Shown here: positions 33,261 to 49,065 of the stretch, piece by piece
How the letters are laid out: every line of letters begins with the position of its first letter
Position numbering within the stretch: the stretch's first letter is position 1
Assembly (NCBI RefSeq): GCF_028416635.1
Contig: NZ_CP114013.1
Span: 5,208,001-5,272,000, forward strand
DNA length: 64,000 bases
Direction of reading: 5' to 3'
DNA from: Baekduia alba
GTDB taxonomy: Bacteria; Actinomycetota; Thermoleophilia; Solirubrobacterales; Solirubrobacteraceae
Position numbers and translations under genes: made by a program
Notes under the pieces: generated by a model
Database searches by the model: none
Seen by the model: the letters and a program-made list of their open reading frames with translations, nothing else
Told to the model about the DNA's origin: nothing

Positions 33261-33357
33261 CAATTGGACTCCGTTCGACCTGGATACAAACCCCATCGCG
33301 GCGCTCGGACAACTCCAACGAGTCGCGAGCTACGGCGCCTTGCAGGGACTTCCCGAA

Positions 33358-33400
33358 GAGCCGACGCGGGGACTCGAACCCCGGACCCCTTCATTACGAG
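33358..33400 (-). repeat. Attachment-site repeat, copy 1 (tRNA-Thr 3' fragment)
   Basis: 43 bases identical to the 3' part of the tRNA-Thr gene at 48.99 kb, from the T-arm to the anticodon loop. The flank to its left (TTGCAGGGACTTCC) also resembles that of the real tRNA. It marks the left end of island A. The following 374 bases to 33774 contain no convincing gene in either strand. Confidence 0.9.
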
Positions 33401-38024: not shown

Positions 38025-38056
38025 CGCGCCCGCTCACATGCGGATGGGTGAGTCTG

Positions 38057-38407
38057 ATGACTGACGAGACACGCCGGGCTGTCGCCTATGTCGTCGGACG
38101 CCTAGCCGGTCAGCGGGACACTGGCGCCGTGTATGACTTCACGGCCCGCAAGCACTTCCAATTCTCCGGAGAGGTGACACCTGGAAGCGTTCAGGTGTAC
38201 GACTATGGCGCTCGTTGCCATATCAGTGGGTCTCCCAGCTCGATGTACCACCACGGGAACCGGCGCCACCTAACGGTGACGTTGAGCGGGAGCAGCTTCA
38301 ACGGCTACGACTTCGCATCGCGACGACATTTCAACGGAACGGTGTCGGGCTCGTCGATCGCGATTTACGACTTCGAAGTCGGACGCTTCTTTCAGTACTC
38401 GGTGTAG
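38057..38407 (+). CDS. Small repeat protein, unknown function
   Basis: 116 residues made mostly of five repeats of about 20 residues with the pattern YDF/YDY, a basic segment, His-Phe and SG (VYDFTARKHFQFSG, VYDYGARCHISG, GYDFASRRHFNG, IYDFEVGRFFQ). Such spacing suggests a small beta-solenoid. The ATG at 38057 follows a GGGTGAG site; a GTG at 38048 is an alternative. It is the last rightward gene of island A. The 261 bases between it and the integrase contain a possible 36-residue frame ending at 38649 that I cannot support further. Confidence 0.6.
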   Translation: MTDETRRAVAYVVGRLAGQRDTGAVYDFTARKHFQFSGEVTPGSVQVYDYGARCHISGSPSSMYHHGNRRHLTVTLSGSSFNGYDFASRRHFNGTVSGSSIAIYDFEVGRFFQYSV

Positions 38408-38668: not shown

Positions 38669-39817
38669 TCAGGTAGAGGAGTCGCGAGCGGCCCGGATGA
38701 GGTCGCTCGCCGGCACTCGTGGCTGTCGTCGGTGCTCGGCGAAGACGTGTGCGTACGTCTTCAGCGTCTCGGTCGGTGAGTGGCCGAGTTGTTCGGCGAG
38801 CTCGACGATCGAGGTGTTGCCGTCAGGGATCATCAGCGACGCGAAGGAGTGGCGGAGGTCGTAGGGACGCGGACGGCCGAGGTCGATGGCCTCGGTCGTT
38901 GCGTTGAAGTGCCGGCGCCGCCAGTTCTTCCAATCGTCGGGTCGCATCCAGCCGCCGTCGCTCCGGCCGAACAAAGGCGCGTCGGGTCGTGTTATCTCCT
39001 TCATGTCGCACCAGGCCAAGATGTCCTCGCGGAGTTCCGGCAGGAGGTCGACGGTCCGGTACACGCGGCCGGTCTTCTGCAGCTTCAGCGACCCGTAGGA
39101 CACCGCTTGCTCGACCAAGATGGTGTCCTCGCGGATATGGCGGCGTTCGAGGGCGATGCCTTCGCCAGGGCGGACACCGGCGTAGGCCAGGACGCTCACC
39201 AGCGTGGCTGAGAAGTGGTCGCCGTCAGCGAGGAGTGCGCGACGCAAGCGCTCGACGGTCGCGGGATCGAGCACTTCGATCGCGCGGAGACGGCCTTGCC
39301 GAGGCTTCCGCACGACCGAGACCGGATTGCGCTCGGCTTCACCCCACTCGACTCCGAGGGTGAACATGGCCTGTAACAACACCATCGCGCGACGGACGGT
39401 CTCGCGACCGACTCCGTTGCCCAGCATGTCGGCACGCCACTGCGCGACCGCGCGAGGTGTGATCTCGTCGAGGACCATGTCTCCGAAGCGCGGGGCGAGG
39501 TGCCGCGACCAGCATCGGTCGTAGCTGACGATCGTCGCGCGGGCCAGCCGGGCAACGGCGTCGGCGCGGTAGGTCGGCCACAGCGCGGCCAAGGTGTTGT
39601 CCCTGACCGTGCCGCCGATGGAGCCGGTCTGCGCGAGTTCGAGCGCGAGACGAGCGCGTTCGAGGTCGGCCTCCTCGAACGTGTCGAAGCTCAGCCGACG
39701 GCGGGCGCCGTCCTGGTCGGTCCAGCGGACAGTTGGCGTGGTCGAGATGCTGCCGTCGGTGCGACGCCGGCGTCGCTGCTCGACGCGCGGCTTGCGGGAG
39801 TCGGCGGCGGCGGTCAT
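38669..39817 (-). CDS. int: Tyrosine site-specific integrase of island A
   Basis: 382 residues. A basic AP2-like/N-terminal arm-binding region (RRRRRTDGSISTTPTVRW) and SAM-like core-binding domain precede the catalytic domain, with Arg in YAGVRPGEG, YDLRHSFASLM, LGHSPTETLKTYAHV and its nucleophile Tyr. It should catalyse recombination between attP and the tRNA-Thr gene. It overlaps the excisionase gene by ATGA and lies 430 bases from the attachment repeat, the normal place for such an integrase. Confidence 0.92.
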   Translation of the reverse strand: MTAAADSRKPRVEQRRRRRTDGSISTTPTVRWTDQDGARRRLSFDTFEEADLERARLALELAQTGSIGGTVRDNTLAALWPTYRADAVARLARATIVSYDRCWSRHLAPRFGDMVLDEITPRAVAQWRADMLGNGVGRETVRRAMVLLQAMFTLGVEWGEAERNPVSVVRKPRQGRLRAIEVLDPATVERLRRALLADGDHFSATLVSVLAYAGVRPGEGIALERRHIREDTILVEQAVSYGSLKLQKTGRVYRTVDLLPELREDILAWCDMKEITRPDAPLFGRSDGGWMRPDDWKNWRRRHFNATTEAIDLGRPRPYDLRHSFASLMIPDGNTSIVELAEQLGHSPTETLKTYAHVFAEHRRQPRVPASDLIRAARDSST

Positions 39818-40062: not shown

Positions 40063-40242
40063 CGCTTCTTCAGTCGATGAGCGGCCCGAAACACCCTCGC
40101 CCAATCGCAGACGCGAACAGGCAGGACACAGCTCAAACAGACCCTGCGAGACCCCGTTCTGCCCCAACAACTGGGAGTCAGCGGGATGCGCGGCACCCAC
40201 GCTTGGGTGCGGAAAGTGCGCATTTGCAGCGACTCCCTGACA

Positions 40243-40294
40243 AGCCGACGCGGGGACTCGAACCCCGGACCCCTTCATTACGAGTGAAGTGCTC
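40243..40294 (-). repeat. Attachment-site repeat, copy 2 (tRNA-Thr 3' fragment)
   Basis: 52 bases identical to the tRNA-Thr gene from the discriminator end through the T-arm, anticodon arm and part of the stem before it. Divergence begins at 40295. It is the right end of island A and the left end of island B; it is not a working tRNA because the 5' half is missing. Confidence 0.92.
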
Positions 40295-40468
40295 GCTCTG
40301 CTGAGGGGCTGGAACCTCTGACAAATCCCTGTAAGACCCTGAGGTCTGAAGGGATGTCATCGCACCTCAAAGTATACCGGGACCGCTCCCGAACCACCAC
40401 GGTGGCCCCGAGATGGCCCCGGGTAGATCATCAACTTGGACGGGCCGAATCCAGCGGCCTGCGCGGAG

Positions 40469-41308
40469 CTAGCCGCGCTCGTCGGCGTCGGGGCCGAGCC
40501 CCAGAAATTTCCTTCTGAGAGACTGAGCGAGGCGCCAGGTGACCGGATCGACGAGCGCGTTGTGCGCGTCGGCCAGGATGTAGGTGCCGCAGCGGGCTTC
40601 GCCGAGGTAGACACGGTTCTTGAACAACAACGCCATGGTCGTTCGAGTCCAGAGACTGCCGCCGCGCGCGCTGCGGATCTTGCCGTCGCGCAGGATCTGC
40701 CCGGCCGCGTCAAGGCTCGCGCCTCGGGCGCGCAGGGCGAAGGCCTCGCGCACCGCGGGCGCGGTCTTAGGATGGGGTCGCAGGCGGCCGTCGGCGCGGC
40801 GCCGGTAGCCAACTGGCGCGACGCCAGAGCCGTGGACGCCGCGCGCGACCGCGCGGCGGCGAGCGTCGTCCCAGCTGGCGCGGATGCGATCGCTGTCGAA
40901 CTCCGCGTAGGACAACATCAACCGCAGCACGAGCCGGCCGTGCTCGGTGGACAGATCGAAGCCCTCCTGGACCGAAACGAAGGTGCCACCCGCGCGCTGG
41001 ATGCGATCAAGATGGTCAAGAGCATCGCGTAGCGAGCGGCCAAAGCGATCGAGCTTGGCGACGATGATCCCGTCGCTGACCCCCGCCTCGACGCGACCGA
41101 TCAACTCCTGCAGCTTCGGTCGATCGGCGCGGCGCCCAGAGGCGTCGAGCTCCTCGGCCACGTTGAGCAGCTTCGCACCGCGGATGGCACACCACGCGTC
41201 GATCTGCTCGCGCTGCACACTGGGCGAGATAAACGACGGACCGGCTCGCCCGCGAACGTCGGAGACGCGGATGTAGCCATCGAGACGAAGCGCCGTGAAA
41301 GCATCCAT
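40469..41308 (-). CDS. Large serine recombinase, C-terminally truncated
   Basis: 279 residues. The resolvase domain is intact: GYIRVSD with the likely nucleophile Ser16, IVAKLDRFGRSLRD, and a YAEFDSDRIRASWDDARRRA long helix. The following recombinase domain (GVAPVGYRRRADG to LFKNRVYLGEARCG) is present, but the gene stops soon after, without the zinc ribbon and coiled coil of full-length large serine recombinases (usually 450-600 residues). It is therefore probably not a working integrase. It sits next to att copy 2. The 312 bases beyond its start (41309-41620) contain no convincing gene. Confidence 0.8.
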   Translation of the reverse strand: MDAFTALRLDGYIRVSDVRGRAGPSFISPSVQREQIDAWCAIRGAKLLNVAEELDASGRRADRPKLQELIGRVEAGVSDGIIVAKLDRFGRSLRDALDHLDRIQRAGGTFVSVQEGFDLSTEHGRLVLRLMLSYAEFDSDRIRASWDDARRRAVARGVHGSGVAPVGYRRRADGRLRPHPKTAPAVREAFALRARGASLDAAGQILRDGKIRSARGGSLWTRTTMALLFKNRVYLGEARCGTYILADAHNALVDPVTWRLAQSLRRKFLGLGPDADERG

Positions 41309-43090: not shown

Positions 43091-43360
43091 TCAGGCGGTG
43101 ACGGGCGAGACGCAAAGGCGATGGAGCTCGACGGCGGTGAGCTCTCGCAACTCGGCATCGGACCGATCAAGGACGTCGACGGCGCCGTACACCACGTCGA
43201 ACAACGCAGCGATCTCCGATAGCGCCAGTGAGTCGACGTCAAGGTCGGAGAACGGGCGCGTGTCCTCGACGAGCTCGTCTTTGGGGACCTTCAAGATTGC
43301 AGCCATCTCGTCTCGGAACGCTTCCCAGGAGGGGCGGCCATCTCCGGGCGCTGGTGTCAC
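43091..43360 (-). CDS. Acyl carrier protein
   Basis: 89 residues. FSDLDVDSLALSEIAALFDV contains the DSL motif; Ser44 is the expected phosphopantetheine attachment site. The GTG start at 43360 overlaps the GNAT stop as GTGA. Because it is isolated from fatty-acid synthesis genes and coupled to an acyltransferase, with a fatty-acyl-AMP ligase across the promoter gap, it is likely a dedicated carrier for an acyl chain rather than the housekeeping ACP. Confidence 0.85.
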   Translation of the reverse strand: MTPAPGDGRPSWEAFRDEMAAILKVPKDELVEDTRPFSDLDVDSLALSEIAALFDVVYGAVDVLDRSDAELRELTAVELHRLCVSPVTA

Positions 43361-44058
43361 CGCGTCGTCTCCGCCGGGAAGTGCACGGCCACCCGGGTCG
43401 GCTTTTGCACGCGTTCGGTCTCGAGAACGCGTGCGGCCTGCTCCTGCCACCGTTCGCGATAGACAGCCAAAGTGACGAGATCCCAGTGCTGCCCAGCGTA
43501 GGTGTAGTGGTCCTTGAGTCGAGCTTCGACCTCGAAGAAGCTGCCCAGGCCACTGGCGAACTGGGGCAGGTTGTATGACGGCGTCTCGAGGTAGAGCTTC
43601 CGGAACTCCCAGCTGCCGAAGACGTACTGCAGGAACAACGCGATGCCACGCATGAAGCGTGGTGTGCGGTCGTCCGGGTCGAAGCGGAGGCCGGCGATGT
43701 ACGCATGCTGGTCCTGGAACGAGTGCCGATATGCGAGCACGAGACCGACCGGAACGTCGGCGCCTTCGGCCACCACGATGAACTGCGCGAGGACTCCCGA
43801 CCACAGGGTCGACATCCATTGCTCGGGACTCGGCGTCTGACCGCGATAGCGCCAGTTGAGCGCCAGTTCGTTGTTGGTCTCGAGGAGCTGGAGGATCCCG
43901 TAGTCGTTGGGCGTCACCGGCTGTAGCGCCACGCTCCGGCCGCGCAACGGCGGAATCGGCGGTGCGGGCATCGACTTCGCGCGAGCCATCAGTCGCTCGG
44001 CATCGACAACGAATTGGAACTCGTCTGGCACGCGTACCGCTCCTGGATCGCTGGACAT
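43357..44058 (-). CDS. GNAT-family N-acyltransferase (RimJ/RimL-like)
   Basis: 233 residues. The fold is recognisable from LRGRSVALQPVTPNDYGILQLLE, FIVVAEGADVPVGLVLAYR and GSWEFRKLYLETPSYNLPQFASGLG (central RKLYLETPSYN), typical of RimL-like GNATs, and DLVTLAVYRERW at the end. Coupling with an ACP suggests acyl-ACP as donor, as in N-acyl amino acid synthases, instead of acetyl-CoA. The acceptor amine is unknown. It has its own promoter, TTGACT-17-TAGAGT at 44105-44077. Confidence 0.82.
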   Translation of the reverse strand: MSSDPGAVRVPDEFQFVVDAERLMARAKSMPAPPIPPLRGRSVALQPVTPNDYGILQLLETNNELALNWRYRGQTPSPEQWMSTLWSGVLAQFIVVAEGADVPVGLVLAYRHSFQDQHAYIAGLRFDPDDRTPRFMRGIALFLQYVFGSWEFRKLYLETPSYNLPQFASGLGSFFEVEARLKDHYTYAGQHWDLVTLAVYRERWQEQAARVLETERVQKPTRVAVHFPAETTR

Positions 44059-44076
44059 CCCGCCAAGGCAGCGGGG

Positions 44077-44140
44077 ACTCTAGGGCGGTAAGGGAAATTA
44101 GTCAAAGTGAGTTGTGCAGAGCATATGGACGCCGTAGCGT
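44077..44140. promoter_or_regulatory. Divergent promoters of the acyl-transfer cassette
   Basis: Leftward: TTGACT (44105-44100) and TAGAGT (44082-44077), 17-base spacing, for GNAT-ACP. Rightward: TTGTGC (44112-44117) and TAGCGT (44135-44140), 17-base spacing, ending 9 bases before the ligase ATG. The two -35 boxes are only 6 bases apart, so one regulator could control both. Confidence 0.65.
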
Positions 44141-44149
44141 ACGCGCCCG

Positions 44150-45865
44150 ATGCACACCTCAGACAGGCTGTCGGGTGCCGGTCGAATCCCCGGACTGTTA
44201 TCGATCATCGACGCAGATCGAGGCGCGACGCCGATACTCACGACGTGGGACGACGGCGCCTACCACGCCTGGACATGGGACGACTGGCGTTCCCGCAGCG
44301 AACGTGCAGCCGGTGCGCTGCATGCCAGCGGGGTCAGGAGCGGGGACGCAGTCGCCGTTCTCCTCACCAACGGGTTCGATAGTTGCGCGGCGGTGGTGGG
44401 CGCGTGGCTGCTCGGCGCGCATGTGGTGTCCCTGCCGATGCCACCGCGCGGGATGGACTTCGAGCGCTATCAGCAGTTGCTCGGACGCGTGCTCGACCAC
44501 GCGCGGCCTGCGGCGACCGTGGCCGACCAGGCCTACGCGAGCGTGCTCAGCGGCGCGCAGGCCGAGGCCACGCCGACGCTTGCCTTGCAGGCCCTTCGCG
44601 ATGCCCCGCCCATGGTCGGGCCCGGGCTGGCCGATGATGACATTGCCTTCGTACAGTTCTCCTCGGGGAGTACGCGCGAGCCGCGAGGTTGCGTGCTGAC
44701 GGCGCGGGCGGTGGCCTGGCAGCTGGATGCCCTGGCCCACGCGCTGCGGATCGATCCCGAGCGGGATCGTGGTGCGGTCTGGCTGCCGATGTCCCACGAC
44801 ATGGGCCTCTTCGGGTGTGTGCTCCTCAGCTACTGGACCGGTCACCCACTTATGCTAGGGGATCCTCAGCGATTCCTGCGCAACCCTATGACCTGGCTCG
44901 AGGATTGCCGGTCGCACGGTGCCACTGTGAGCGCCGCGCCCAGTTTCGCGCTTGACCTCGTGGCACGCGCAATCGGTCGCCGCCCGGCGCTCCAAGCCGG
45001 CATGCCGGCCACCATGCGCAAGCTCGTGCTCGGCGGAGAGCCGATCTCGACGCACACGCTGCGAACGGCCACCGATCCGGCAACCGGTCTCGGGCTCCCC
45101 CCGGAGGCCCTCCTGCCCGCATACGGCCTGGCCGAGGCCACGCTGGCGGTCACGCTTACGCCGGTGGACGACGGCGTCCCCGGCTCTCTGCGTGTGGACG
45201 CCGCGGCACTGAGTCGCGGTCGCGCGGGGCCTTGCTCGGCGGGGTCTGAGCAGGCGGGCACCGACGCGGTCGAAGTGGTCGCATGCGGCCGTGCGCTGCC
45301 GGGGGTCGATGTGCAGATCGAGTCGCCAAAGGGGGGAGGCGACGGCGCCGTGGGTGAAATCTGCGTACGGTCGCCTGCGCTCGCCGCCGGGTACATGGGC
45401 GATGACGGCTGGGCGTCGCGCTGCCAGGGCGGCGTGTTGCGCACCGGCGATCAAGGGTTCCTTCACGACGGACGTCTCTACGTGCTCGGGCGGAAGGACG
45501 ACATGGTCTCGGTCGGTGGACGCAATCTCTTCACTCGGGACATCGAGTTGGCGCTCTCGGACGCGGGCGCGATCAAGCCCGGGCGGGTCGCTGTGGTGAA
45601 CGTCGGCCGGGTCGGCACCCCGGAGCTGGCGGCGGTGGTGGAAGACGCCGACTCGCGCCGCGACTTGCGCGAGCTCGCGCGCGAGCTCGCGCGTACCTCC
45701 TTCCGCGACTGCGGAGCTCGCCTCTCGAGCTGTGTCTTCGTCGAAGCCGGCATGCTGCCCAAGACCTCGTCGGGCAAGGTGCAGCGTCATGGCTGCGTTG
45801 CGCTCGTCCGCGCCGGCGGCGCAGGGGTTGTTGCCCGCGTGGCGTTGACGTCGGAAGGAGCCTGA
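44150..45865 (+). CDS. Fatty-acyl-AMP ligase (FAAL-type adenylating enzyme)
   Basis: 571 residues of the ANL superfamily. The adenylation motif VQFSSGSTREPRG, WLPMSHDMGLFG, PAYGLAEATLAVT and LRTGDQGFLHDGRLYVLGRKDD (core TGDQGFLHDG) fit FAALs, which activate fatty acids as acyl-AMP and load them on an ACP instead of CoA. The divergent ACP is the obvious partner. The ATG follows the TAGCGT box by 9 bases, leaderless style. Five bases after its stop a secreted barrel-like protein begins. Confidence 0.88.
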   Translation: MHTSDRLSGAGRIPGLLSIIDADRGATPILTTWDDGAYHAWTWDDWRSRSERAAGALHASGVRSGDAVAVLLTNGFDSCAAVVGAWLLGAHVVSLPMPPRGMDFERYQQLLGRVLDHARPAATVADQAYASVLSGAQAEATPTLALQALRDAPPMVGPGLADDDIAFVQFSSGSTREPRGCVLTARAVAWQLDALAHALRIDPERDRGAVWLPMSHDMGLFGCVLLSYWTGHPLMLGDPQRFLRNPMTWLEDCRSHGATVSAAPSFALDLVARAIGRRPALQAGMPATMRKLVLGGEPISTHTLRTATDPATGLGLPPEALLPAYGLAEATLAVTLTPVDDGVPGSLRVDAAALSRGRAGPCSAGSEQAGTDAVEVVACGRALPGVDVQIESPKGGGDGAVGEICVRSPALAAGYMGDDGWASRCQGGVLRTGDQGFLHDGRLYVLGRKDDMVSVGGRNLFTRDIELALSDAGAIKPGRVAVVNVGRVGTPELAAVVEDADSRRDLRELARELARTSFRDCGARLSSCVFVEAGMLPKTSSGKVQRHGCVALVRAGGAGVVARVALTSEGA

Positions 45866-45869
45866 GCAG

Positions 45870-46352
45870 ATGAGTCGGCAAGGCCTGGGGCAGCGCGTCC
45901 TGGCCACGTTGGCGATCGCGACGATCGCGACGATCTGCTGGTTGGCGGAGTCTCGCGCAGAGGCACGAAGCACGAACGCTGCCGAGGTCCGTGTGTCGGC
46001 GCGGCTCCACCTCGTCGGGGTAAGCGCGGCGGGCATCGTCCAGGCGGGCAAGGTCGCATCTGCGCAACTCGGCAACGGCACCATGACCGCCCGAAGCGCT
46101 ACGACCCAGACCACCGGGCGGTACCGCACGACCACCCGCATCCGGTTCGGGTCGGGGACACTCACGCTGCGTGGCAGCAACCGAGTCGCTCCAGGACGTA
46201 CCTCTCACCAGTACCACCTCGCGGGTACGGCCAAGATCGTCTCGGGAACGGGGCGCTTCGCCCACGCGACCGGGCAGATGATCGTGCGTGGTGACGGGCG
46301 CAACAACCTGAAGTGGCTGAACTTGCAACTCCGTGGAGCGATCCATCGCTAG
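45870..46352 (+). CDS. Secreted beta-barrel-like protein (allene oxide cyclase/dirigent-like style)
   Basis: 160 residues. A signal peptide (LATLAIATIATICWLAESRAEA) is followed by repeated beta strands; HLAGTAKIVSGTGRFAHATGQMIV (core GTGRFAHATG) is the motif style of small secreted AOC-barrel or dirigent-like proteins. It is in one transcription unit with the acyl-AMP ligase, so it may bind or carry the acylated product. Family assignment is tentative. Confidence 0.6.
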   Translation: MSRQGLGQRVLATLAIATIATICWLAESRAEARSTNAAEVRVSARLHLVGVSAAGIVQAGKVASAQLGNGTMTARSATTQTTGRYRTTTRIRFGSGTLTLRGSNRVAPGRTSHQYHLAGTAKIVSGTGRFAHATGQMIVRGDGRNNLKWLNLQLRGAIHR

Positions 46353-46884: not shown

Positions 46885-48264
46885 CTAGGCGGCCACAAGG
46901 GAACGCACCTTCTCCGCTAGCTCGTCGTTGGTCAGGACCCCGAGGACGTTGAGGTTGACGAGACTGTCGAGGACACCGGCCGGGACAGCCGCAGGGGCCG
47001 GCGCGGTAGCCATAGGGGCCGACACATGCCCCGGCGTGTCTCGGATGTCGGCGCCGAGGTCGACGGCGATCCGCAACAGCGGTTCTGTGCCGTGCAGGTT
47101 GTGACGGGCCTGCTCGATCTCGGCCTGGACGTCGACCTGGCGGCCTCGGTACTCCGCAAGCTCGTGGGCATACGTGCGCGAGAGCTCGTTGAGCGAGTGG
47201 CCGAGGTGGGTCGCGATTTCCTGGTTGGAGAGGCGGCCCTCCTTGATGAGCAGCGAGGCGTTGAAGTGCCGCAGGTCGTATGGAGTGCATTCCCATCCGG
47301 CCGCGCGGGCGACCGGCTTGAACTTCCGCTTGACCCAGTTCTTGTAGTCGTCGTCCGACATCGCGCCGCCATCGGCGGCCGGGATGACGAAGTCGGAGTC
47401 GGCGGCGTATGGCGTGATGGCACGCCATGCCCGCAGATCGACCGCGAGGGCTTTTAGCAACTCCGCCGAGCGGCTTCGGTGGGTCTTAGTGTCGCTCGTG
47501 GACTCACCGTCGGGATCAGGCGTTTTCAGGATGACGAGCGTCGCCTCCCACACGTTGCACCACCGCAGACCCCGGACCTCACCAGGCCGGAGCCCGGCGT
47601 ATGCCGCCAGCGAGATCCACATGGCGGTCATGGCGGAGTCCCACTGGCTGACGGCGAGAGCGCGCATGCGCTCCACGACCTCGACCTTGGGCGGCACGCG
47701 CCGTGGTCGCTTCTTGCGAACGGCTGGAGCCTCAACGGCCAGCGCCGTGTTGAAGTCCACCATGTTGCGACGCACACCGAACGCGAGGATCGATCCGAGG
47801 ACGGCAAGCGCCAACTTGACCGTCGAGGCGCCAACGCCCTCGGCCAGCATCTCATCCTTGAGACGCTCAAGCTCCGATGTGGTGAGGTCGATCAGCACCA
47901 GCCCGTCAACGCGGTGCTTGAGGTGCCGGTCCCACGCGCCTTCGTAGTTGTCGCGCGTGCGTTGCTCCAGGCGGGTGAGCACATGCTGCTCCCACCACTT
48001 GGCCTTGGCGCCCCAGACGGTGGTTGTCGCACGGGACGTCGGTCCCTTCCGAAGCTGCTCGGCGCGCTCCTCCAGCTTGTCGCGAAACTCCTTGGCCTCG
48101 TCGACGTCGTCGAACTCCTCGCGCTGTCGCTCGCCCGTGTCGTCGATCCACCGCACGCGATAGGTGAGCAGCACCGACCCGTCGGCCCGCTTGCGCCGCC
48201 GGGCCTCGATGTTGCGCATCTCCGGATCGCGCTTACGCTTGGCCTTGACCGTGGGCTTAGCCAT
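46885..48264 (-). CDS. int: Tyrosine site-specific integrase of island B
   Basis: 459 residues. N-terminal basic domain (RRKRADGSVLLTYRVRWIDD), core-binding domain, and a catalytic domain with Arg in YAGLRPGEVRGL, YDLRHFNASLLI, LGHSLNELSRTYAHELAEYRG with the Tyr nucleophile. A C-terminal extension of about 100 residues follows. It is coupled to the small ORF and excisionase upstream and is 730 bases from the tRNA-Thr target. Confidence 0.92.
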   Translation of the reverse strand: MAKPTVKAKRKRDPEMRNIEARRRKRADGSVLLTYRVRWIDDTGERQREEFDDVDEAKEFRDKLEERAEQLRKGPTSRATTTVWGAKAKWWEQHVLTRLEQRTRDNYEGAWDRHLKHRVDGLVLIDLTTSELERLKDEMLAEGVGASTVKLALAVLGSILAFGVRRNMVDFNTALAVEAPAVRKKRPRRVPPKVEVVERMRALAVSQWDSAMTAMWISLAAYAGLRPGEVRGLRWCNVWEATLVILKTPDPDGESTSDTKTHRSRSAELLKALAVDLRAWRAITPYAADSDFVIPAADGGAMSDDDYKNWVKRKFKPVARAAGWECTPYDLRHFNASLLIKEGRLSNQEIATHLGHSLNELSRTYAHELAEYRGRQVDVQAEIEQARHNLHGTEPLLRIAVDLGADIRDTPGHVSAPMATAPAPAAVPAGVLDSLVNLNVLGVLTNDELAEKVRSLVAA

Positions 48265-48430
48265 CGCTGTCAGCCGTCCGTTCGGTCAGCGCCTGCGTGC
48301 GGATCCGGAGGGCGTCCGCTTCGTCGCGCGCCGTCTCGGTATGGATGCGGCCGTCTGACCCGCGCCAGCGGGCGGCATAGCTCACCGCCGTCTCGTTGTC
48401 CTCGTCGTCAATTCGCGCCCACGCGGTCAC
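48257..48430 (-). CDS. 57-residue protein between excisionase and integrase
   Basis: A short frame from the GTG at 48430 to the TAA at 48257. The start overlaps the excisionase stop (GTGA) and the end overlaps the integrase ATG by 8 bases. It reads as an acidic beta-rich peptide, WARIDDEDNETAVSYAARW then GSDGRIHTETARDE, resembling the AP2-like N-terminal strands of integrases. The perfect fit between its neighbours supports a translated gene, perhaps a directionality cofactor. Confidence 0.6.
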   Translation of the reverse strand: MTAWARIDDEDNETAVSYAARWRGSDGRIHTETARDEADALRIRTQALTERTADSDG

Positions 48431-48753
48431 GGGCGACTACCCCCGCGTCGCAGGCCTCCCGGGCGCGGGGCGCCTGCCAGACCGGCGCGCCGCCGATTGA
48501 CCATGCGATCGAGCCCTTCGCGCACCTGCTGGCCGACGACGAACGAGGCGACCCACGCCTGGGCGTCGTCGCGGTGGACCGAGTACGGGCCGCCCGCGTC
48601 GAACTGAACGGCCCGCAAGCGCTTGGCCCGGATGTGCTGGCGCACGGTCTTGGGCGTGCGCCCGATGGTCGCGGCGACCTCGGCGACCGTCATGGTCTCC
48701 TTCGGCCACGGAAACTCCGGCAACTCCATCGTCGCCGTGCGGTTGGTGGTCAT
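48427..48753 (-). CDS. xis: Excisionase-type helix-turn-helix protein of island B
   Basis: 108 residues with TMTVAEVAATIGRTPKTVRQHIRAKRLRAVQ, a MerR/excisionase-like winged helix, and SVHRDDAQAWVASF wing-helix end. The ATG at 48753 has a GGAGGA site 4 bases ahead. It leads the xis-ORF-int transcription block. The 240 bases between it and the tRNA contain hairpins (CCCGATCggtGATCGGG at about 48925) but no gene, and are likely attP arm sequence. Confidence 0.85.
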   Translation of the reverse strand: MTTNRTATMELPEFPWPKETMTVAEVAATIGRTPKTVRQHIRAKRLRAVQFDAGGPYSVHRDDAQAWVASFVVGQQVREGLDRMVNRRRAGLAGAPRPGGLRRGGSRP

Positions 48754-48992
48754 GCGCTCCTCCTTGCGGTCGATGCGCGCGACGGTGGCGTCGCGCGGGG
48801 TCGACAGCGAAGGACGCGGCGAGGCGGCGTCTCCGGCTCCAAGGCGCGGCGGGCGAGCGGCGCTCGGCGTACGTCGTGACCGGCGAGGAGGCGCGAAAGG
48901 AAGGCGCCGTGGCCCCGGCGTGGCCCCCGATCGGTGATCGGGCGCCACTACGGAACTGGTGGAAATCGTTGCCTTGCGGGGATTTCCAGAGG

Positions 48993-49065
48993 AGCCGACG
49001 CGGGGACTCGAACCCCGGACCCCTTCATTACGAGTGAAGTGCTCTACCAGCTGAGCTACGTCGGC
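48993..49065 (-). tRNA. tRNA-Thr, anticodon CGT
   Basis: 73 nucleotides on the minus strand. Acceptor GCCGACG pairs with CGTCGGC, D-arm GCTCAGCTGGTAGAGC, anticodon loop CTCGTAA with anticodon CGT, and T-arm GGGGTTCGAGTCCCC; discriminator U and no encoded CCA. It reads ACG codons. Its 3' part is the integration target repeated at 33.36 and 40.24 kb. Confidence 0.95.

Follow-up and report, generated by a model that had tools for sequence, protein, structure and literature searches.

A cassette of fatty acyl-AMP ligase, acyl carrier protein and GNAT genes, linked to genes of exported proteins in actinobacteria, that may serve protein acylation

A stretch of 64,000 nucleotides from Baekduia alba (hereafter the window, meaning the whole of the DNA that was analysed) carries a small cassette of genes for a fatty acyl-AMP ligase (FAAL), an acyl carrier protein (ACP) and a protein of the Gcn5-related N-acetyltransferase fold (GNAT), with genes for putative exported proteins on either side. 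The cassette recurs across actinobacteria and may be an undescribed route for the fatty-acylation of secreted proteins. The trio of enzymes is already known from the mycobacterial mbt-2 cluster, and what is new here is the statistical link of the trio to signal-peptide genes. The identities of the enzymes, their partnership and their linkage to exported proteins are read from sequence and genomic context.

Relatives of the window GNAT were collected by scanning public genomes with an alignment of the initial matches, and then further genome sets with a larger alignment. Scans of genome and viral contigs with the single window sequence gave no relatives; the alignment-based scan found relatives in genomes but none in viral contigs. 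After removal of near-copies 75 GNATs were obtained, 61 of which form a core set that is entirely actinobacterial. The family is rare, being found in 11 of 396 genomes phylum-wide and 2 of 299 in the class, and in one further genome set 25 of the 26 positive genomes came from a single family (f95), taken as Frankiaceae. An ACP domain is fused N-terminally to the GNAT in about 50 of the 61 core members and C-terminally in three loci (L023, L037 and L054), and is encoded by a separate adjacent gene in another three (the window, L036 and L163). The carrier serine is kept in all 56 ACP domains of the family. The FAAL gene adjoins the GNAT gene in about 30 loci, or about half of the core relatives, frequently with a 4-nt overlap, as in Nocardia (L042, L053), Virgisporangium (L046) and Catelliglobosispora (L067), and with a short gap in many Frankia. 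The distance matrices of FAAL and GNAT are correlated (r 0.76 over 32 loci), a value to which shared species history, not removed, contributes. In the GNAT tree most ACP-fused members fall into one supported group of 49, and the window pairs with L020, from a Thermoleophilaceae metagenome-assembled genome (MAG), at 96/92. Since ACP-GNAT fusions are found in both orders, the FAAL adjoins the GNAT in about half of the loci and the two diverge in a correlated way, the view that the FAAL, the dedicated ACP and the GNAT are one functional unit is supported. Their co-occurrence in other genomes, whose absence had been named beforehand as grounds for rejecting the original prediction of such a unit, was found in the core set.

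The window ligase matches the Pfam AMP-binding family (E 2e-45) and the NCBIfam models for FAAL and for MbtM, the latter with E 8e-66, under the cut-off of that model, and the solved structures nearest to it are those of FAALs (3pbk, FadD32). In FAALs the CoA pocket is closed by characteristic residues, and a FAAL-specific helix and a proline of the pocket are further hallmarks (PMC8460268). In the alignment the window protein keeps the Trp and Pro of the WLP..HDMGL motif, the Met, the FAAL-specific helix and the Phe, and by its fold, its blocked CoA pocket, the helix and the proline it is classed as a FAAL. The ACP has the PP-binding domain and the DS(L/I)-type serine, as DSL, of a stand-alone carrier.

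The GNAT was harder to place, as the window protein alone scores under the Pfam thresholds. Acetyltransf_3 (PF13302) is matched by 39 of 42 GNAT relatives, and a family profile searched against solved structures found proteins of the SpeG and RimJ/RimL types. The AlphaFold model of the window GNAT shows a clear GNAT fold (mean predicted local distance difference test score, pLDDT, 85.6), for which the best superposition is SpeG with Z of about 18. The GNAT thus belongs, by fold and by family profile, to the Acetyltransf_3 (RimJ/SpeG) group. Among the 42 members there was no match at E 0.01 to the Pfam families of MbtK-type enzymes (Acetyltransf_8) and of HlyC, and no Pfam or NCBIfam match to the families of N-acyl amino acid synthases (FeeM) and LuxI. 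MbtK was absent among the profile matches to solved structures; it was also not among the fold matches listed for the window model, which excludes nothing. At the acetyl-CoA P-loop (Q/R-x-x-G-x-G/A) the window protein has P128, R131 and P133, and across the family the Q/R is not kept, while GxG is kept in most members. That the window protein has lost both glycines and that the Q/R is not conserved in the family would fit a donor other than CoA.

Linkage to exported proteins was assessed in the 39 core loci outside Frankia clade I, using 254 genes from the same loci as controls. A simple, home-made signal-peptide rule was applied alike to cassettes and controls (an earlier version of it had flagged 13 of 96 cassette proteins), and a downstream partner was counted if a signal-peptide open reading frame (ORF) began between -30 and +60 nt from the cassette stop codon. 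Such partners were found in 14/39 loci and 9/254 controls (odds ratio 15, p 2e-8). With upstream partners added the numbers were 26/39 and 39/254 (odds ratio 11, p about 1e-10); since one counted partner (L067) is the FAAL itself, 25/39 is the fairer figure, and L037, L164 and a few others are doubtful. These targeted ORF tests replaced a first neighbour statistic on greedy gene maps (26/64 against 61/266, p 0.007) because small genes were missed in the maps. The coupling with secreted proteins proposed for the window is thus general and statistically strong, and is not a local accident.

The partners themselves differ from clade to clade. In Nocardia an exported protein of 115-121 aa overlaps the stop codon of ACP-GNAT by ATGA in 5/5 loci; it is retained in L049 and L056, where the FAAL is not adjacent, and is under purifying selection (dN/dS 0.07-0.35). 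The usual order in Frankia clade I is ACP-GNAT, FAAL, a SnoaL-like gene (4-nt overlap) and, 39-177 nt further, an exported protein with four cysteines. Frankia clade I has in this an exported partner family of its own. A profile of it found 20 core-locus sequences, near-copies included, of which 20/20 lie within 2.4 kb of ACP-GNAT on the same strand. A shared family was sought between the three putative exported proteins of the window, SEC_A, SEC_B and SEC_C, and the partners elsewhere, and none was found.

Several loci show arrangements of their own. The small genome of the actinobacterial MAG TL1-3.bin48 (G499) contains five GNAT copies (L021, L022, L025, L026 and L028), each beside an exported protein; these include a protease-like protein, a peptidase A4, a repeat protein and others. 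In L154, L157, L158 and L161 the ACP-GNAT gene adjoins one for an exported HELGH metalloprotease (a matrixin in L158); L157, L158 and L161 also carry a lipoprotein, and L157 and L158 a downstream gene of no known family that looks like a methyltransferase. Two ACP-GNAT genes surround one FAAL and one SnoaL-like gene in Frankia sp. EI5c (L043:258-5257). In Actinophytocola oryzae (L048:9661-17040) ACP-GNAT is directly upstream of a large polyketide synthase (PKS), the one clear PKS link noticed. Distant GNATs without ACP (L031:6585-8754 and L032:5258-7443) have a second GNAT-like protein on one side and, on the other, one with a Tat-like RRxML signal, an arrangement kept in two genomes.

In the mechanism we propose, the FAAL would activate a fatty acid as acyl-AMP and load it on its private ACP, which is a domain of the GNAT protein in most relatives, and the GNAT would then pass the ACP-bound acyl group on to an amine. 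The anatomy of the cassette supports well the charging of the ACP by the FAAL and the taking of the acyl group by the GNAT, each chemical step of which we infer. The acceptor would most likely be the exported protein that the operon encodes, which would receive its acyl group in the cytoplasm, ahead of export. This protein is the leading candidate because it is recurrent, translationally coupled and kept even where the FAAL is not adjacent, and by analogy with HlyC and CdiC, which are discussed below. We consider it close to an even chance that the cassette is a dedicated acyl-transfer module whose likeliest acceptor is the co-encoded exported protein. The fuller proposal, an as yet undescribed protein-lipidation system of actinobacteria in which FAAL and ACP-fused GNAT fatty-acylate an exported protein encoded with them before it is secreted, the cargo being interchangeable (inhibitors, proteases and small Cys-rich proteins), is offered more tentatively. 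Of the transfer logic given in the original prediction, from FAAL through ACP and GNAT to an amine, the trio as a unit has stood, and whether the amine belongs to a small molecule or to an exported protein is a matter of the probabilities given here.

A number of observations speak against acylation of the exported protein. For about one in three loci outside Frankia clade I there is no tight exported partner, and signal peptides were called by a crude, home-made rule. The partners span unrelated families, among them an I36 inhibitor (L046), a matrixin (L158), an Amidase_6 (L156) and a peptidase A4 (L026), besides small Cys-rich proteins, and no acceptor motif common to them was seen. Sec substrates leave the cell unfolded, which would give only a brief interval for modification. 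Both the use of acyl-ACP rather than acyl-CoA and the acceptor are what we infer. Finally, tailoring-type neighbours occur in some loci: SnoaL-like proteins, the PKS beside L048 and, in L036, an oxygenase resembling KshA.

These neighbours fit a small-molecule or lipid product, and the alternative that a small N-acyl molecule (an amino acid, an amine or a polyketide-derived amide) is what the module produces, with the exported protein as its carrier, target or processing enzyme, is possible though somewhat less likely in our judgement than acylation of the exported protein. In mbt-2 the same trio acts on a small molecule, the acceptor being a lysine side chain, and SpeG, the nearest neighbour in fold, acetylates small amines. 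However, no recurrent amino-acid or nonribosomal peptide synthetase (NRPS) gene was noticed in the loci examined, and a small-molecule product does not by itself explain why exported proteins of unrelated families are coupled by ATGA. That the cassette is a siderophore-lipidation system of the mbt-2 type, as the same trio and the MbtM match of the FAAL might suggest, is very improbable given the lack of an MbtK-type Pfam match, the absence of MbtK from the profile matches to solved structures and the fact that no NRPS siderophore genes were noticed in the loci examined. An equally slight chance is left to an ordinary acetyl-CoA-dependent, RimJ/SpeG-like GNAT that neighbours FAAL and ACP by accident, for which Acetyltransf_3 membership, the models on SpeG and RimJ and the GxG kept in most members could be cited, but most relatives fuse an ACP to the GNAT, in both orders, and the serine is always retained.

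The features of the locus are collected in Table 1. The host genome is actinobacterial and consists of one contig of 5.86 Mb that contains the window. The four genes of the original prediction were found as ORFs at matching coordinates, with the FAAL divergent from the GTGA-coupled GNAT and ACP and with secreted proteins on both flanks, three signal-peptide proteins in all. GNAT, ACP, SEC_B and SEC_A are read from the minus strand and FAAL and SEC_C from the plus strand, and 91 bp separate the divergent arms. Two promoters 6 bases apart had been suggested in this interval, which found no support; the promoter scan gave a single consensus match, on the minus strand at 44105-44077. SEC_C starts 4 nt past the FAAL stop codon and is preceded by a GGAAGGAG site. 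Its description as barrel-like found no support beyond a sub-threshold Pfam match to Dirigent (E 0.058) and a single-sequence model of pLDDT 52, too poor for a structure search. SEC_C had no relatives among 40 related genomes and SEC_A matched no Pfam family. The genome search found a single copy of an ACP of this kind, and SEC_B is likewise single-copy in the genome.

Table 1. Features of the cassette and of the island that carries it (positions in the window)
Feature	Position	Strand	Remarks
Attachment-site copy (tRNA-Thr 3' end), left end of island	40224-40305		
Serine recombinase, opposite end of island	40469-41308	-	Resolvase E 9e-30
SEC_A, putatively exported, 174 aa	41621-42145	-	Signal-like N-terminus; 92 nt past SEC_B, same strand
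SEC_B, putatively exported, 264 aa	42238-43032	-	58 nt past ACP stop, same strand
ACP, 90 aa	43091-43363	-	GTG start overlaps GNAT stop (GTGA); PP-binding E 2e-5
GNAT acyltransferase (predicted), ACP-partnered family	43357-44058	-	AlphaFold (AF2) model, pLDDT 85.6, SpeG/RimJ-type fold; relatives with fused ACP
FAAL	44150-45865	+	Pfam, NCBIfam and structure matches
SEC_C, putatively exported, 160 aa	45870-46352	+	Signal-peptide heuristic and spacing
Tyrosine integrase	46885-48264	-	Phage_integrase E 5e-12; beside tRNA
Excisionase-like helix-turn-helix protein, within longer ORF frame	48427-48870	-	TIGR01764 excise E 9e-7; beside tRNA
Attachment-site copy within tRNA-Thr(CGT), right end of island	48974-49055		

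The cassette lies inside an island of 8.75 kb at tRNA-Thr(CGT). The 3' end of this tRNA gene is duplicated, with an identical core of 48 bp at 40247-40294 and 48997-49044 (chance expectation 0), and these direct repeats, the integrase and the excisionase identify an integrative island of the tRNA-gene type. No match to the window GNAT was found in three other searched genomes of the same genus, which fits a recent gain of the cassette. Relatives of the GNAT were absent from collections of plasmid and phage records. The island predicted for the cassette is real and accounts for its arrival in this host, but it is specific to the host genome and elsewhere is not part of the system. A third copy of the tRNA-Thr 3' end, at 33340-33400, delimits another integrative element (33.3-40.3 kb), which stands in tandem with the first at the one tRNA-Thr(CGT) gene and has its own integrase (38669-39817). 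This neighbouring element contains an ORF of 119 aa (38048-38407) with a repeated YDFxxRxHF-type motif.

If the exported protein is indeed the acceptor, bacteria outside the repeats-in-toxin (RTX) and contact-dependent inhibition (CDI) systems would lipidate exported proteins with their own fatty-acid activation, apart from the lipobox pathway, and the fused ACP-GNAT with the FAAL would be a compact and portable means of lipidating proteins. Should a small molecule be the product instead, the cassette would point to a family of N-acyl compounds tied to proteins that Frankia, Nocardia and other actinobacteria secrete. On either reading the question can be tested with the four genes of the operon.

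The coupling of such a cassette with secreted proteins in an integrative island had been described as a system that could not be named. A system with the same three enzymes can be named, however, mycobacterial mbt-2 (MbtK GNAT, MbtL ACP, MbtM FAAL), where the FAAL loads a dedicated ACP and the GNAT passes the acyl group to an amine; no paper was found on a FAAL-GNAT-ACP system with secreted proteins in a literature search that left subscription journals mostly outside. As in mbt-2, the FAAL, ACP and GNAT genes stand together, but here the GNAT is of the Acetyltransf_3, SpeG/RimJ-like type rather than MbtK-like and is mostly fused to the ACP, and the cassette is linked to exported proteins, whereas mbt-2 is linked to a siderophore pathway. 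A GNAT-like fold with an acyl-ACP donor is also known from the ACP-dependent N-acyl amino acid synthases (FeeM) and LuxI, to whose families the cassette GNATs, as noted above, show no match. For FeeM both fold and donor are documented (PMC11631085). Bacterial FAALs have been described as always standing in a PKS or PKS/NRPS context (PMC8460268); the cassette FAAL has the hallmark residues in common with them but stands instead with a GNAT, a PKS being noticed only at L048. In the GNAT-lipidated ribosomally synthesized and post-translationally modified peptides (RiPPs), namely selidamides, nostolysamides and goadvionins, a GNAT puts a fatty acyl group on a ribosomal peptide, and one of these enzymes, the tandem GNAT NpuN, can take acyl-CoA (PMC13060382). 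The precursor of the NpuN system carries a RiPP leader and is the product of a lanthionine synthetase, whereas the cassette partners are signal-peptide proteins. The toxin-activating acyltransferases HlyC, ApxC and CdiC have a GNAT-like fold, use an acyl-ACP donor and acylate exported proteins, their genes lying beside that of the exported protein (PMC8339906, PMC8510554). The cassette differs from these in having no HlyC Pfam match, a FAAL and an ACP of its own, Sec- or Tat-like signal peptides on the partners and an actinobacterial host range, but here too the acyltransferase gene is coupled to one for an exported protein.

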